Shown: positions 8,540 to 37,329 of the stretch, one piece after another | How the letters are laid out: each line of letters starts with the position of its first letter | Numbering within the stretch: the stretch's first letter is position 1 | NCBI GenBank assembly: GCA_025464325.1 | Contig: JAODGH010000028.1 | Span: 1 to 37,353, forward strand | Direction: 5' to 3' | DNA length: 37,353 nt | Source of the DNA: Methanosarcinales archaeon | GTDB lineage: Archaea; Halobacteriota; Syntropharchaeia; Alkanophagales; Methanospirareceae | Notes under the pieces: model-generated | Databases searched by the model: none | What the model was told of the DNA's origin: nothing | What the model saw: the letters and a program-made list of their open reading frames with translations, nothing else | Translations under genes and position numbers: made by a program

Positions 8540-8560
<21 letters not shown>
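7457..8560 (+). CDS. Amidohydrolase family protein (cyclic-imidine/nucleobase deaminase-like)
   Basis: 367 aa; metal-binding [34 protein letters not shown]. Confidence 0.85.
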
Positions 8561-9796
<1,236 letters not shown>

Positions 9797-24881: not shown

Positions 24882-25940
24882 ATGGTGGTTATGATTAAAT
24901 CGATCTTGCCATTTGTGGCAATAGCTTTATTCCTTATTGCGCTGGTAGCACGCAAACGTCATAACGAGCCTTTTTCTTGCTTTTCCGCAGCTGCTGGCTG
25001 GCTGTTCTTCGCAGGTTACTGCTATTTCGCTGCCGCTGATTTTATCGCACGCAGTGAGTACTTTGATGGTGGTATGGCGTTTGTATTCCTCGTCTTTGCG
25101 GTTATCGTCGCGGTTCTGATCCTTATAACGAGAAATGATGCCCTCTTATTGCTGTTCAGCACAGATATGAACTTCAAAGACGAGCTGGAGAAGGGTATAA
25201 TACCAGTCGAACTTAAAGAAGCTTTTAGTGCACGGAAGCTACACATACCGAAAAGAGTCAGGGTATTGAGGAGGAACGAATGGCGACTGGTGACCGGAAT
25301 ACCGCGTGATTACATTGCAATTGCAGCACCAAATGGCAGACGATTGGATATCTATAAGGATCGCAGGGTGATGGACATCCTCTTTATGGTGACAAAGGTG
25401 GCACTTATCAGCGCGGTATTATATTTCCCGTTCGCAGTACTGCCCGCCCCTGGCGATGCGATCATATCCTGCACCGCCAGGCTGACCACAATACTTGTGA
25501 ACCTCTCTGGCAGTAGTGTCTATCTGGTACCGCCATCCTATATCTACACTACAAGTAGCGCCTTCCGTGCGGCATACAATCCTATCGAGATTGTGCTCGC
25601 ATGTACTGCGATACAGAGTATGGTACTATTCGCCGGACTGATATTCAGCGTAGACGCGCAGTTGAGCCGTAAGATAAAGGCGTTTATGGTCTCTGTACCG
25701 GTTATCTACGGTCTGAATCTCATAAGAAACACTTTCGTGTGTGTGGCGTACTACGGGCAGTGGTTCGGTTCGCCCGCTACCAGCTTCATGGTGGCGCATG
25801 GCGAGATTGCGCGGGTGGGTGTGCTGATCTCCCTGATCATCATTGCATACATGGTATTCACAATACTACCGGAGGCGCTGGATCTTGTAGAGGACTCCGT
25901 TCGTTTGATCTACAACTTCCTGCTCAGGCGAGAGTCATAA
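24882..25940 (+). CDS. artA: Archaeosortase A-like transmembrane transpeptidase
   Basis: 352 aa polytopic membrane protein with the Cys/Arg/His arrangement: VLACTAIQSMVLFAGL, VPVIYGLNLIRNTFVCVAYYGQWF, SFMVAHGEIARVGVL. Confidence 0.9.
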   Translation: MVVMIKSILPFVAIALFLIALVARKRHNEPFSCFSAAAGWLFFAGYCYFAAADFIARSEYFDGGMAFVFLVFAVIVAVLILITRNDALLLLFSTDMNFKDELEKGIIPVELKEAFSARKLHIPKRVRVLRRNEWRLVTGIPRDYIAIAAPNGRRLDIYKDRRVMDILFMVTKVALISAVLYFPFAVLPAPGDAIISCTARLTTILVNLSGSSVYLVPPSYIYTTSSAFRAAYNPIEIVLACTAIQSMVLFAGLIFSVDAQLSRKIKAFMVSVPVIYGLNLIRNTFVCVAYYGQWFGSPATSFMVAHGEIARVGVLISLIIIAYMVFTILPEALDLVEDSVRLIYNFLLRRES

Positions 25941-30752: not shown

Positions 30753-32795
30753 TCAAACCAACAGGCTTCTTCGTTCCGTTCGCACTATCTCCTGCACCCG
30801 TTCGGATGTCAGATCTGCAATCGGATAGTAATTCCCACCCGAATACGACGCGATCTCACGGCAGTAACCGAGCTGCATCTGGATGAACGAACTGCTGACC
30901 ACCTCTGTATCTATCACAATCGTATGAATGCCCTTAACGCGCGCGTATTCGGAGATAGCACGTATCTCAGCCTTTATATCCGCCATTCCTCGGCTGACGT
31001 TCGCTCTACCATCTGATAATAAAACCAGTACCGGTATTACACTCTCGTTTCGCGCCTGTTCTGCAGTTAGCATGTTTATAGCTGTCTCAAGTCCTGCAGC
31101 CAATGGTGTCCGTCCACCGGTCGGGAGTTCTTTCAGGCTCTTGTATGCTAAATCCACACTTGAACACAGTGGTAGCAGGACATCTGCACGGTTACCCCTG
31201 AACGCCACCAGCCCCACTTTATCACGCTGCTGATAAGCATCGAGCAACAGAGAAAATACAGCGCCTTTCGCACTCGTCATCCGCTGTTCCGCACCCATAG
31301 AGCCAGATGCATCGACCACAAACATCGTTGCGGTAGATACCCTGCACATGCGTACTTTCTCGCGAATATCCTCACCCCGTATCACAACTGCCAGATTGGA
31401 ACCCGCTGCTGCCTTGCGACTCTTCTGATATGGTGCGGCAGCTCTGATAGTGGCATCGAACGCGATATCCATAATAGGACCGCCATTCTTTGGGTACCGG
31501 TGACGCAGGTATCTACCCCTGTGCGTAGAGAGTGCAGGTGTTCTTCTCCCTGTACCACTGCGATAACTTCTGCTCCTGTCCATTTTATCATGTCTTACCG
31601 TTTTCGCATCTATCGGCTTACCTATCTCAAATACTCGCTCGTTCTCTGCATCTCTCGTCGTATCGTCTGGTAATGCACCGTTCTGGCTCGTGCCTTCGCC
31701 CATATCTGTCCCCGACTCGCTTCTATGCTCATGCCTGTGCTTATGCTCCTGCTCCTGCTTCAGCTCCTGTATCGTCTCCTCAAGTTTATTCATCTCCAGA
31801 ATGGGAGATTCAAACGGTTTTCTCCGCATCCTGTGCGGTAGTGCGAGTTCTATCGCCTCTTTTATGTCTTCGAGGCCGACTTCCTTCCTGTTATCGAACG
31901 CTGCAATCGCTTTCGCTGTCCTGTTAATCACAATCTCCGCCCTGTGTGTTCCCACACCGAATTTAATGCACGTCTCAGCCGCCAGCTCCAGTAGATCATC
32001 GCTTATCTCCACCTCACTCAGTATCCGTTTCGCATGCACGATCCTGTCCCGCAATTCCTCCTGTTCTGTCCTATATCTATCCCTGAACTCTTCCGGATCC
32101 TTCTCAAAGCTCTCCACCTGCTTCACTATCTCCACACGCTTCGTTGCATCATCTATACTCTCAACATTCGCTTGCAGTCCGAACCGGTCAAGTAACTGAG
32201 GTCTGAGCTCACCCTCTTCGGGGTTCATCGTACCCACAAGAATAAATCTGGCGGGGTGCGAGACCGATACACCCTCACGTTCCACAACATTAATCGACAT
32301 TGCCGCTGAATCCAGAATAACATCGGCAACGTGATCGTCCAGGAGATTCACCTCATCAATATACAGTATGCCGCGATTCGCAGCCGCGAGTATACCGGGC
32401 TCTAACGCCTTTATTCCCTCCTTTATCGCTCGTTCCACATCTATTGAACCCACTACCCGGTCCTCTGTCGCACCAAGAGGAAGGTCCACAACCCACATAC
32501 GTCTACGTTCTATCTCTAACTCGTCACCATTCGTCCGCCTGGCATAGCACAGATCGCACATCTCCCGTTCATCATACGGGTTACAATTGAACGGACAGCC
32601 CTTCACCACATCTATCTCGGGCAGTAGTTCCGCAAGTGCACGTACAGCGGTGGACTTAGCCGTACCTTTCTCACCTCTTATCAGCACCCCACCTATACGC
32701 GGATTGATGGCATTGAGTATGAGCGCCCTCTTCATCCGCTCCTGTCCCACGATAGCGGTGAATGGTAATATCTCACGTCTTATATGGTGTGTCAT
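30753..32795 (-). CDS. Magnesium/cobalt chelatase-like AAA-VWA fusion (ChlI-ChlD)
   Basis: 680 aa; [118 protein letters not shown]. Confidence 0.94.
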
Positions 32796-33668: not shown

Positions 33669-34007
33669 ATGATAATCGCGGAAATAACTGTTATTCCCAT
33701 TGGTACGTGTACGCCGGGCGTCAGTAAATATGTAGCAGGAGCAGTGGCGGAATTACGGAATATGGGGTTGAATCCCCGGCTCACCGCTATGGGCACTATA
33801 TTCGAGACGGATAATTTAGACGTGGTATTGAAGGCATTTAAAGTCGTACATGAATCCGTGTTTGCACGGGGTGCAATGCGCGTTGTTACAAGTTTGCGGA
33901 TAGATGAGAGGCGTGACAAAGAAGCGAGTGCCGACCAGAAGGTAAGATCGGTCTATTCGCAACTCAACGCGATCAGTCGAGATAATTCTGGAAGTACAGC
34001 TCGGTAA
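33669..34007 (+). CDS. MTH1187/DUF77-family thiamine-binding-like protein
   Basis: In-frame ATG 33669: MIIAEITVIPIGTCTPGVSKYVAGAVAELRNMGLNPRLTAMGTIFETDNLDVVLKAFKVVHESVFARGAMRVVTSLRIDERRDK. Confidence 0.9.
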   Translation: MIIAEITVIPIGTCTPGVSKYVAGAVAELRNMGLNPRLTAMGTIFETDNLDVVLKAFKVVHESVFARGAMRVVTSLRIDERRDKEASADQKVRSVYSQLNAISRDNSGSTAR

Positions 34008-35553
34008 CGAACTTCTCCATGAAATCCTGCTCCTCTTCCAGCTTTATATGTTCTATCTGCTTCGCCACTTCTTCCGCATCCTTTCGCTTGCGTCTTGAGA
34101 TCAGAGCCTGTCTGGCGCCTTCCAGCGCGGCGTTGCCTACTTTCTTCATCCGTTCACGCGCAATTGGTGGCAGCAGACCTATGCGAATCGCATTCTCCGT
34201 CTTCGTGAAATTGACGAACCCGCCCGCAAGGTATATCGTATCGATATCATCAAAATCAATGCCATATTTATCGAGTAACACCCTTATACCGACCGCGACA
34301 GCGGTTTTGGCAAGATTCAGCTGGTCTATGTCGGTCTCCAGCAGCTTGATGTCCCTGGTCAGTCGTAACTCCTTTTCATCGCCCCGGAACTTACCCCGTC
34401 CATCAATTATTCTATGCTCCAGTAACTCCGCCAGGGCATCTATCAGACCAGACCCACAGATACCAACCGGAGGGGCACCGCCTATCGTCTCATATTCTAC
34501 TTTACCATCTGCACCTATTCGCACCTCCTTTATCGCACCCTCTACACCGCCTGTACCACATGAGATACTGGCACCTTCAAATGCAGGTCCCGCCGCCGCG
34601 GAGGTTGCAATCAGTCTTTCCCGATTACCAAGCACCATCTCGGTGTTCGTTCCAACATCTATCGCCATACAGATCTCTCTTCCAATATACATCTCAGTCG
34701 CCAGTACCACCGCCAGTGCATCGGCACCAACGAAACTGCCTATCAGTGGCAGTCCATAAACCCGCGCCTCTGTATTCATTGCGAGCTTTAACTCCCGCGC
34801 CATTTTCAATACCGGTTCTGTACTCTCGGGCTCGTAGGGCGCCTTACCCAGTGACTGAACAGGCAGGTCGAAGAAGAGATTACGCATCACTGGATTGCCA
34901 ACCGCCACCAGCTCATAGACTGCTTCATTCCTGCCATCGGTCATAGAAGCGATCATATCATTAACCGCGGTTCTCACCTCATTTACCAGTATCTCCTGCC
35001 CGGTCTTCGCAAATTCTATCCTTGAAATCACGTTATTACCGTATTTCGTCTGCGGATTCTCACGAGAACTCTTTCTGACCACTGCCCCCGTTTCCAGGTC
35101 TATCAGATAGCTGGCAAGCGTTGTGGTACCGATATCAAGAGCCACACCGTACAACGCACCGGTATAATCACCGATGTACGAAGAGTTGTAAAATACACGA
35201 TCTGCTTCGCGATGTACAAAAGGCTCTATCGGTATCCACCTGTACTCACCCGATTCCAGGACGTAATATACTCGCTCAGGTACGTTGACGTATATCGGCT
35301 CCTCAGTTTTCAATATCCGGGCCTGACATGCAAGCCGCTGATCTTTGCCCCGGATAAACTTCTTCTCCGCTTCCGTCGGTTCAGATAATGCACCCGGTGG
35401 GGCTTTAACTTCTACCAGACACTGACCACATTTGCCATCGCCACCACAGGATGCATCTATCGGTATACCCAGCTCCTGCAGATACGATAATAACGTTCGA
35501 CCCGCAACGAGTTCTGCCTCATGTGTCTGTCCATCTCTAAAGGTGATCTTCAT
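33973..35553 (-). CDS. Reductive activator of corrinoid protein, RACo/RamA-like (N-terminal [2Fe-2S] plus ASKHA, DUF4445 family)
   Basis: 526 aa; IDASCGGDGKCGQCLVEV...RLACQARI 2Fe-2S ligands; ALDIGTTTLASYLIDLETG, NPQTKYGNNVISRIEFA, AIDVGTNTEMVLG, GPAFEGASISCGTGGVEGAI, PVGICGSGLIDALAELL. Confidence 0.92.
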   Translation of the reverse strand: MKITFRDGQTHEAELVAGRTLLSYLQELGIPIDASCGGDGKCGQCLVEVKAPPGALSEPTEAEKKFIRGKDQRLACQARILKTEEPIYVNVPERVYYVLESGEYRWIPIEPFVHREADRVFYNSSYIGDYTGALYGVALDIGTTTLASYLIDLETGAVVRKSSRENPQTKYGNNVISRIEFAKTGQEILVNEVRTAVNDMIASMTDGRNEAVYELVAVGNPVMRNLFFDLPVQSLGKAPYEPESTEPVLKMARELKLAMNTEARVYGLPLIGSFVGADALAVVLATEMYIGREICMAIDVGTNTEMVLGNRERLIATSAAAGPAFEGASISCGTGGVEGAIKEVRIGADGKVEYETIGGAPPVGICGSGLIDALAELLEHRIIDGRGKFRGDEKELRLTRDIKLLETDIDQLNLAKTAVAVGIRVLLDKYGIDFDDIDTIYLAGGFVNFTKTENAIRIGLLPPIARERMKKVGNAALEGARQALISRRKRKDAEEVAKQIEHIKLEEEQDFMEKFVTELYFQNYLD

Positions 35554-36050
35554 TTAACGGAATAACCGAGCCTGGCACACAGTTCTCGTCGTTCCTTCTT
35601 CTCCTCTGCCGTCTCTATTCGCTCCACTGCTGTGCCATCAACCACACCAAGCACCGCACGACCCAGCTCTGTCTCCGCTACAATCACTTCCAGCGGGTTT
35701 GCTGATGCCACATAGATATTGGCAACTGCGGGATGCGATTTCAAAACACCAAGAACATTTATAGGAAATGCGTTATCAAGCACAATAAAAAATGTGTGAG
35801 AAGCCCCTATTCGGAGGCAATTCTCACTTGCTAACCGCTCCAAATCTTCGTCATTACCCGTAACGCGAGTCAATTTCGGTGCCGCTTCATTCATGGCAAC
35901 CGCGCATTTCAGCCCGGGTACAGCGGTCAATAGAGCTCTGAAGATATCGTCGCAGGCGAAGATAGAGAAATTACCCTGACCTATGATCACCTGCTTCCCG
36001 TCCGGGTTCCTGACCTCTATCCGCTCTATCTTCACCACTTTGTCATTCAC
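35550..36050 (-). CDS. Adenosine-specific kinase-like protein (DUF355 family)
   Basis: 166 aa; IIGQGNFSIFACDDIFRALLTAVPGLKCAVAMNEAAPKLTRVTGNDEDLERLASENCLRIGASHTFFIVLDNAFPINVLGVLKSHPAVANIYVASANPLEVIVAETELGRAVLGVVDG. Confidence 0.88.
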   Translation of the reverse strand: MNDKVVKIERIEVRNPDGKQVIIGQGNFSIFACDDIFRALLTAVPGLKCAVAMNEAAPKLTRVTGNDEDLERLASENCLRIGASHTFFIVLDNAFPINVLGVLKSHPAVANIYVASANPLEVIVAETELGRAVLGVVDGTAVERIETAEEKKERRELCARLGYSVK

Positions 36051-36057
36051 TTTACGA

Positions 36058-36294
36058 CTATTCCGCCATGCTTATTGCGCCCTGCTCGCACACATCCACG
36101 CAAACTTCGCATTCGGTACATTCCTCTGCGTTTATCACCGCGTGCTGTTCTCGACCATGCGGGGCGCTGCTCGGATCCGACTCCTCGACCAGACTTATCG
36201 CCTCTACCGGGCATTCCTCCACACACATGCTCGTTCCTTTCTCTTTCCTTCCTTTACAGCCATCACACTTATCCAGATCTACTACTGCTGGCAT
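36058..36294 (-). CDS. 2x[4Fe-4S]-type ferredoxin with long first-motif loop
   Basis: MPAVVDLDKCDGCKGRKEKGTSMCVEECPVEAISLVEE...INAEECTECEVCVDVCEQGAISMAE; start trimmed from 36369. Confidence 0.88.
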   Translation of the reverse strand: MPAVVDLDKCDGCKGRKEKGTSMCVEECPVEAISLVEESDPSSAPHGREQHAVINAEECTECEVCVDVCEQGAISMAE

Positions 36295-36541
36295 TTCTCT
36301 ATCACACTCCTTAGACACTTCTCTGTACTCATCATATATAAAAGTTGCTGTTTTTCTGCTGTGTTGCATGGTTGAGCCTTATCTACCACGCTTTGCTTCT
36401 GTGGTAAGTCCGCAGGATAATAACCAGATGTAAGCCACTGCTTCCTGATCAGGGATGCATTGAAAAGTATAGAGAAAAATATTAAAGTGAGACTCATATA
36501 CCTTATGCAGGTAGAGGAAGAGTGCAGGGAGGGTATAACAA

Positions 36542-36625
36542 GCGGGGGTTGCTGAGTTAGGAAAAGGCGCAGGGCTTAGGACCCTGTCTCGTAGGAGTGC
36601 GCGTGTTCAAATCACGCCCCCCGCA
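36542..36625 (+). tRNA. tRNA-Leu (TAG)
   Basis: 84 nt; acceptor GCGGGGG/CCCCCGC + A, anticodon arm AGGG-CTTAGGA-CCCT, long variable arm TCTCGTAGGAG, T-arm GCGTGTTCAAATCACGC. Confidence 0.95.
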
Positions 36626-36852
36626 TAAGGTTATAGGCGGTTTTATCCATGAGCATTTGCCGGGGCACTTCTTTTTTAACGTATGATTAATAATAGATGG
36701 TAGTATGATTTGTAGTGGAGAGCGTGGCGGTGTTGAGATTTTCTTTCGAGACCGTGTGGGCAACAGAGTGGCTATCTATGATGTGGCTATGTATTATTTA
36801 TATCATTTATATCCGGATACGGTTCATGCCGGGTGTTGGAGGCGGTAGCAGG

Positions 36853-37329
36853 ATGAAAGAACGAGACGGGATAGATGAACTCGTGAAGTATTTACGCGAC
36901 AGTAAGGAGAAGCTAATGATGTGTGGCGAGTTCTGTAACCGCATAAAGCTCGGTGATAAGCGATTGATCGATTGGGCAGTTGCGATAGCGTCAGGACTTG
37001 GTGCGCATGTGGCGGCAACCGGCAATACGGTGGTAGAACTGAAGAGACGAGGTATCGCCACCCGAAAGATGTGGGCTGCGGAGGTCATATACTACCTGCA
37101 ACATGACCGATGGCAGGAAGGTCTGGACCTGGTTGCGAGACCTGATGTGGTTATAATGCTTGGCTACAACATGGATATGCTACGTGCGATTGTTAAAGCA
37201 TTGAATACAGCGGGTATAGAAACGGTCGTACTTGATAACGTGGCAGTGGACGAGGCGACGTACTCACTATCCCGGCTCTCTTTAGCTGAGTGGGAGAATA
37301 CACTGGAGATGATTGTAAATATGTTATAA
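36853..37329 (+). CDS. cdhB: CO dehydrogenase/acetyl-CoA synthase epsilon subunit-like (CdhB)
   Basis: From ATG 36853: KEKLMMCGEFCN...DWAVAIASGLGAHVAATGNTVVELKRRGI...RPDVVIMLGYNMDMLRAIVKALNTAGIETVVLDNVAVDEATYSLSRLSLAEWENTLEMIVNML matches the CdhB layout (VIILGH..., ID...P.AT.S..NLS). Confidence 0.75.
   Translation: MKERDGIDELVKYLRDSKEKLMMCGEFCNRIKLGDKRLIDWAVAIASGLGAHVAATGNTVVELKRRGIATRKMWAAEVIYYLQHDRWQEGLDLVARPDVVIMLGYNMDMLRAIVKALNTAGIETVVLDNVAVDEATYSLSRLSLAEWENTLEMIVNML

Follow-up and report, generated by a model that had tools for sequence, protein, structure and literature searches.

The 37,353-nt stretch of DNA analysed here (the window) carries a gene for a putative ATP-dependent activator of corrinoid proteins at 33973-35553, and the question that this locus raises is which corrinoid protein the activator serves. 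The window covers the first 37,353 bases of a 45,001-base contig from a metagenome-assembled genome (MAG) of 1.42 Mb that is 94% complete, and we take this host genome to be that of an ANME-1 (Methanophagales) archaeon. A sequence-only reading of the window had proposed that the activator, an adjoining ferredoxin and a DUF355 protein together reactivate CdhDE, the corrinoid protein of carbon monoxide dehydrogenase/acetyl-CoA synthase (CODH/ACS). Our analysis leads us to lean towards a different answer, namely that this is a lineage-specific RACo of ANME-1 whose main client is most likely an MtbC/MetH-type corrinoid protein encoded on another contig (C57), an orphan methyl carrier. The two genes at the centre of this reading are:

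33973-35553, minus strand: RACo-type reductive activator of 526 aa (Pfam domains, invariant cysteines, sequence match to the PDB, AlphaFold2 and Foldseek)
Host genome (G000), contig C57, 1692-2321: MtbC/MetH-type corrinoid protein (PF02310, 91.6 bits; PF02607, 31.5 bits)

The host genome was examined through family searches and selected stretches. Of the 36 genomes from the family of the host, 27 carry the short activator, and its orthologues were compared in these, each contributing one ANME-1 locus; PF02574 was sought in 59 genomes. The relatives are incomplete MAGs, and some of their contigs end close to the activator gene.

A short RACo-type activator

The three Pfam domains of the activator all scored well over their cut-offs (RACo_C_ter 259 bits, Raco_middle 156.7 bits, Fer2 48.9 bits), and they are arranged as an N-terminal plant-type [2Fe-2S] domain followed by the RACo middle region and a C-terminal ASKHA domain. 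The cluster cysteines (Cys36, 42, 45, and 76) are invariant in an alignment of 21 sequences. The nearest solved entries by sequence are 3ZYY and 4C1N, which were also on top in a Foldseek search (E = 1.9e-47) with the AlphaFold2 model (mean predicted local distance difference test score 85.9). Sequence, domains, and predicted fold therefore support the identification as a RACo-type ATP-dependent reductive activator, and on this point the sequence-only reading is borne out. The gene is the only one with a RACo_C_ter domain that we found in the host genome. Its close relatives, with 66-88% identity, come from Methanophagales/ANME-1 MAGs and MAGs grouped with them, which underlies the ANME-1 assignment of the host; a search of a plasmid collection returned distant relatives alone, with at most 38% identity among the matches listed.

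In RACo, the [2Fe-2S] cluster receives its electron from a donor, and ATP use in the ASKHA domain drives the Co(II) corrinoid to Co(I). Homology suggests the same chemistry here: a low-potential donor would pass an electron to the [2Fe-2S] domain of the activator, and ATP binding and hydrolysis in the ASKHA domain would drive the reduction of Co(II) to Co(I) in the bound corrinoid protein.

Comparison with known activators sets this protein somewhat apart. RACo/AcsV of Carboxydothermus hydrogenoformans, the activator of the corrinoid iron-sulfur protein (CoFeSP) represented by 3ZYY and 4C1N, has the plant-type [2Fe-2S], middle, and ASKHA domains in common with it and is the best match in both sequence and fold. 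At 526 aa, however, the ANME-1 protein is ~100 residues shorter than RACo/AcsV (631 aa), and ~75 aa of this difference separate the Fe-S domain from the middle domain; we place the missing stretch there because AcsV position 204 is matched by residue 129 of the ANME-1 protein in the alignment. The AcsV model NF040756 is its top NCBIfam match with 350 bits, below the curated cut-off of 800, and unlike RACo/AcsV it has no cdh/acs linkage and falls in a separate clade. RamA, which activates methylamine corrinoid proteins in methanogens, also has the middle and ASKHA domains, and its type of client is similar (MtbC-like). Unlike RamA, the ANME-1 activator has an N-terminal [2Fe-2S] domain instead of a C-terminal 4Fe-4S ferredoxin domain; no Fer4 match was found with Pfam, just three cysteines lie outside the [2Fe-2S] set, and the RamA model TIGR04270 scores 175.6 bits, below its curated cut-off of 500. 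We regard the activator as a further RACo whose client is probably a different one, with all functional steps drawn from homology and gene order.

An orphan corrinoid protein as the probable client

The C57 protein belongs to a family of ~210 aa proteins with a B12-binding cap and domain in which the DxHxxG motif is invariant (17 sequences), and it is an orthologue, 68% identical, of the G015 protein used as the query. The corrinoid gene is the top neighbour family of the activator, found within 5 kb in 11 of the 27 ANME-1 loci, nine of which have it less than 200 bp away; DUF166 occurs within 5 kb in nine loci and every other family in at most five. The nine close pairs are all head-to-head and 40-67 bp apart, and a tenth head-to-head pair, in G011, is formed with a second, partial activator copy. 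These 10 genomes span five genera (g3, g5, g6, g7, and g10), and in genus g14 the corrinoid gene lies within 4 kb of the activator. The two genes are also adjacent in outgroup genomes of families f2 (G036 and G037), f5 (G040 and G042), and f17 (G056). Because the pair is adjacent both across ANME-1 genera and in these three families, gene order suggests that the linkage is old and was later broken in other ANME-1 genera, including that of the host. It is also because of the head-to-head order in ANME-1 and the adjacency in the outgroups that we prefer the C57 protein as the client. Domains, predicted fold, gene order, and the presence of both proteins in the genome are what we observed, and from these we infer the client, the activation reaction, and the pathway.

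Several results weigh against this preference. In the host genome itself the activator and corrinoid genes lie on separate contigs, and the surroundings of the main activator copy showed no corrinoid gene in 16 of the 27 genomes, although some of these contigs end nearby. Across the 36 genomes, 26 have both genes, one has the activator alone, two have the corrinoid gene alone, and seven have neither (Fisher P = 3e-5), but ~5 chance absences are expected for any universal gene across these MAGs. Under a null model that allows for incompleteness and physical linkage, with linked genera counted as one locus, the association has P ~0.013, compared with 2e-5 if the genes are treated as unlinked. 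We therefore down-weighted co-occurrence, which lends weak support to the pairing, and it is gene order that carries the argument. Furthermore, no methyltransferase partner was identified by searches for PF02574, URO-D, PF01717, and PF00809 (the MtbB and MttB families were not searched), and a single activator may serve several corrinoid proteins.

The individual methyltransferase searches differ in how much they say. PF02574 was found in 0 of the 59 genomes, and on this ground a split MetH was rejected as the client complex; an MtaA-type partner was rejected as no URO-D gene (MtaA/MtbA-type) was found in the host genome. For PF00809, the one match in the host is weak and falls in a 521-aa frame on contig C56, which also weakly matches the CdhD model. 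PF01717 had no match in the host and is absent from most ANME-1 genomes, but this says little about a MetE-type synthase, since the Methanosarcina acetivorans control, in which MesC is the proposed synthase, was also missed and MesC may escape PF01717. The host genome has one MtrH. An amidohydrolase that lies beside some of the corrinoid genes was considered as a deaminase of S-adenosylhomocysteine or methylthioadenosine in the methionine cycle, but it scored below the cut-offs.

As no dedicated or substrate methyltransferase was recognised beside the corrinoid gene in the ANME-1 loci that we read, the protein is probably a shared methyl carrier for biosynthesis, and it is in this role that the C57 protein, with its DxHxxG motif, would be the main client of the activator. 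Methionine synthesis is a reasonable but tentative candidate for its use, given a precedent in Phaeobacter, where mutant fitness led to the proposal that a RamA-like DUF4445 protein reactivates a split methionine synthase with an MtbC-like B12 part (PMC5764234). That system likewise combines a ferredoxin and DUF4445 activator with a stand-alone MtbC-like protein. It differs in having PF02574 and pterin-binding partners and DUF1638, whereas PF02574 was absent from all 59 relatives here; a methionine role in ANME-1 is put forward by analogy. According to a comparative study of ANME genomes, it is unknown which corrinoid donates the methyl group of methionine in methanogens (PMC9012536), and the activator/corrinoid pair offers a testable candidate for ANME-1. 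More speculatively, the two proteins may form a dedicated corrinoid methyl-carrier shuttle of ANME-1, in which the stand-alone MtbC-like protein and its own short RACo would pass methyl groups from reverse methanogenesis to biosynthesis (e.g., of methionine) without a known substrate-specific methyltransferase, with DUF355 and ferredoxin added in one sub-lineage to tune activation; we regard this fuller scheme as doubtful. On the reading preferred here, activation is directed not at CODH/ACS but at an orphan corrinoid protein that is present in most of the ANME-1 genomes examined.

Three features of these loci are recorded here as separate observations. In the host genome, the corrinoid gene stands in a same-strand row (C57, 703-4105; locus L117), between genes for PspA and a PspA-associated protein (PspAA) on one side and an ABCE1-like ATPase gene on the other, and this arrangement is kept in four genomes of the genus. 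The DUF166 genes near the activator (L058, L062, L063, L066, L067, L068, L071, L072, and L073) immediately adjoin it in four cases. In some ANME-1 genomes, a second RACo is accompanied by an MtbC-like gene and a PF00809 methyltransferase gene of its own (L149, L136, L150, L151, and L153), and some of these second RACo frames contain in-frame stops.

CODH/ACS and other possible clients

One alternative is that the activator is general-purpose, with the sole RACo of the genome serving the MtbC-like protein, CdhDE, and perhaps MtrA, and with the adjoining ferredoxin as its donor. The genome encodes CdhD, CdhE, and the MtbC-like protein yet has a single RACo_C_ter gene, and in outgroup genome G056 a long RACo adjoins both an MtbC-like gene and cdhE/cdhD. 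The phylogeny points the other way. Longer activators (622-645 aa) in four outgroup genomes adjoin cdhE, cdhD, and CooC-like genes, and the CODH-linked activators of the phylum group in a separate clade (support 100/99), which lies outside that of the ANME-1 activators (95/98). In addition, no activator was detected in five ANME-1 MAGs that do have CdhD and CdhE, although incompleteness could account for some of these. Co-presence with the activator across the 36 genomes gave P = 0.33 for CdhE and P = 1.0 for CdhD (Fisher). Overall, we consider a general-purpose activator unlikely, if still worth keeping in mind.

Less probable still is the dedicated CdhDE module of the sequence-only reading, which consists of ferredoxin, DUF355, and RACo and was thought to be flagged by a neighbouring CdhB. 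The genes involved are:

35550-36050, minus strand: DUF355/PF04008 ("adenosine-specific kinase") family protein of 166 aa (Pfam; PDB 2D16)
36058-36294, minus strand: ferredoxin of ~78 aa with two 4Fe-4S motifs (Pfam Fer4 families; start by comparison with two relatives)
36542-36625, plus strand: tRNA-Leu with a TAG anticodon (Rfam and ARAGORN)
36853-37329, plus strand: divergent CdhB-like protein (epsilon subunit of acetyl-CoA decarbonylase/synthase, ACDS) of 158 aa (TIGR00315; 3CF4)

There are points in favour of this module: CoFeSP is the client of the Carboxydothermus RACo, the closest structure solved so far; the activator scores higher with the AcsV model than with that of RamA (350 vs 176 bits); and the host genome does encode CdhC, CdhD, and CdhE. 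However, none of these genes is linked to the activator. The two CdhC-type genes (C14 and C28), CdhE (C21), and CdhD (C16) are each on a separate contig, and since the cdh genes of the host are scattered in this way, missing clustering is not decisive by itself. A look for cdh genes beyond the window end had also been suggested in the sequence-only reading, but inspection of the remaining contig to 45001 revealed hypothetical proteins, a HetF/NTPase-like protein, a CorA-like transporter, and a restriction-type helicase, with no recognised cdh gene. In the 27 ANME-1 loci, the 7 kb on either side of the activator contain no cdhD or cdhE, and whereas six outgroup loci show the activator linked to cdhD/cdhE or acsC/acsD, none of the 27 does. 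The activator also falls under the AcsV cut-off (350 vs 800 bits), and the three-gene set is kept in only three of the 27 genomes.

The CdhB-like gene itself stands only in part. An opposite-strand gene does start with an ATG at 36853, and because its product matches 3CF4, the M. barkeri ACDS epsilon subunit (E = 1.3e-8), and has a sub-cut-off TIGR00315 score (39.4 bits vs 101.2), we consider it a divergent relative of CdhB. No cdhA was recognised past it in the remaining contig. It adjoins the activator in the host genome and in no other genome examined, and the tRNA-Leu gene, which was absent from the sequence-only reading, separates it from the minus-strand cluster. We therefore rejected the neighbouring CdhB as a link to CODH/ACS.

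Methylotrophy on dimethylamine or a similar substrate, as inferred for ANME-1 "mtb" genes in a published survey that reported a dimethylamine corrinoid protein gene (PMC10134854), finds some encouragement in the accessory modules with their own PF00809 methyltransferase (G008, G035, G011, G021, and G022) but is very improbable, as the C57 protein scores 152.9 bits with the MtbC model NF041607 against a curated cut-off of 350, the host has no URO-D gene of the MtaA/MtbA type, and in the ANME-1 loci read the gene has no recognisable substrate methyltransferase next to it (MtbB/MttB were not searched genome-wide). The "mtb" gene of that survey is probably the same orphan corrinoid protein that we prefer as the client.

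Genes around the activator

The ferredoxin, DUF355, and activator genes form a real minus-strand cluster. The DUF355 protein scores 186.5 bits with PF04008 (cut-off 25) and matches PDB 2D16 with E = 1e-65, and its gene shares 4 nt (ATGA) with that of the activator, an overlap that is kept in two further genomes, i.e., in all three that have the pair. The open reading frame of the ferredoxin was listed as 36058-36369, but we prefer the conserved start at 36294 because in G001 and G003 the corresponding region is preceded by a stop codon and by residues unrelated to those here. Co-conservation of the three genes did not hold up across the family, as ferredoxin and DUF355 adjoin the activator only in the host, G001, and G003, all of a single genus, and a conserved ferredoxin-DUF355-RACo operon was accordingly rejected. 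DUF355 and the ferredoxin are sub-lineage additions to the activator locus with putative roles. The coupling of DUF355 to the activator is real, and because it is confined to one sub-lineage the protein is unlikely to take part in activation generally; it may be a local accessory or else a co-transcribed passenger. The adjoining ferredoxin may be the electron donor in the sub-lineage of the host. The name "adenosine-specific kinase" is unsafe as evidence of kinase activity, as AMP formation was not seen with the Thermotoga member of PF04008, while one from Thermus has been reported as an ADPase (PMC10248530).

On the other side of the activator are:

33671-34007, plus strand: Thiamine_BP-family gene (PF01910), convergent on the activator 3' end with a 35-nt overlap
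30753-32795, minus strand: fused ChlI-ChlD type AAA+/VWA "putative cobaltochelatase" (TIGR02442, 786 bits vs cut-off 779)

The Thiamine_BP gene adjoins the activator in four genomes of the genus. The ChlI-ChlD gene lies ~1.2 kb from the activator, in an order that is identical in G001, and the two are a possible B12-related grouping.

Just beyond the window, a large HetF-like protein that also resembles an NTPase region of a TPR protein is encoded on contig C40 at 39190-41409 (locus L046, 6191-8410), and its stored sequence has runs of N. Within the window, an archaeosortase A gene (24882-25940; TIGR04125, 181 bits) lies beside translation genes. An adenosylhomocysteinase gene, whose product converts S-adenosylhomocysteine to homocysteine and adenosine, is found at 8540-9796, 24 kb from the activator cluster.

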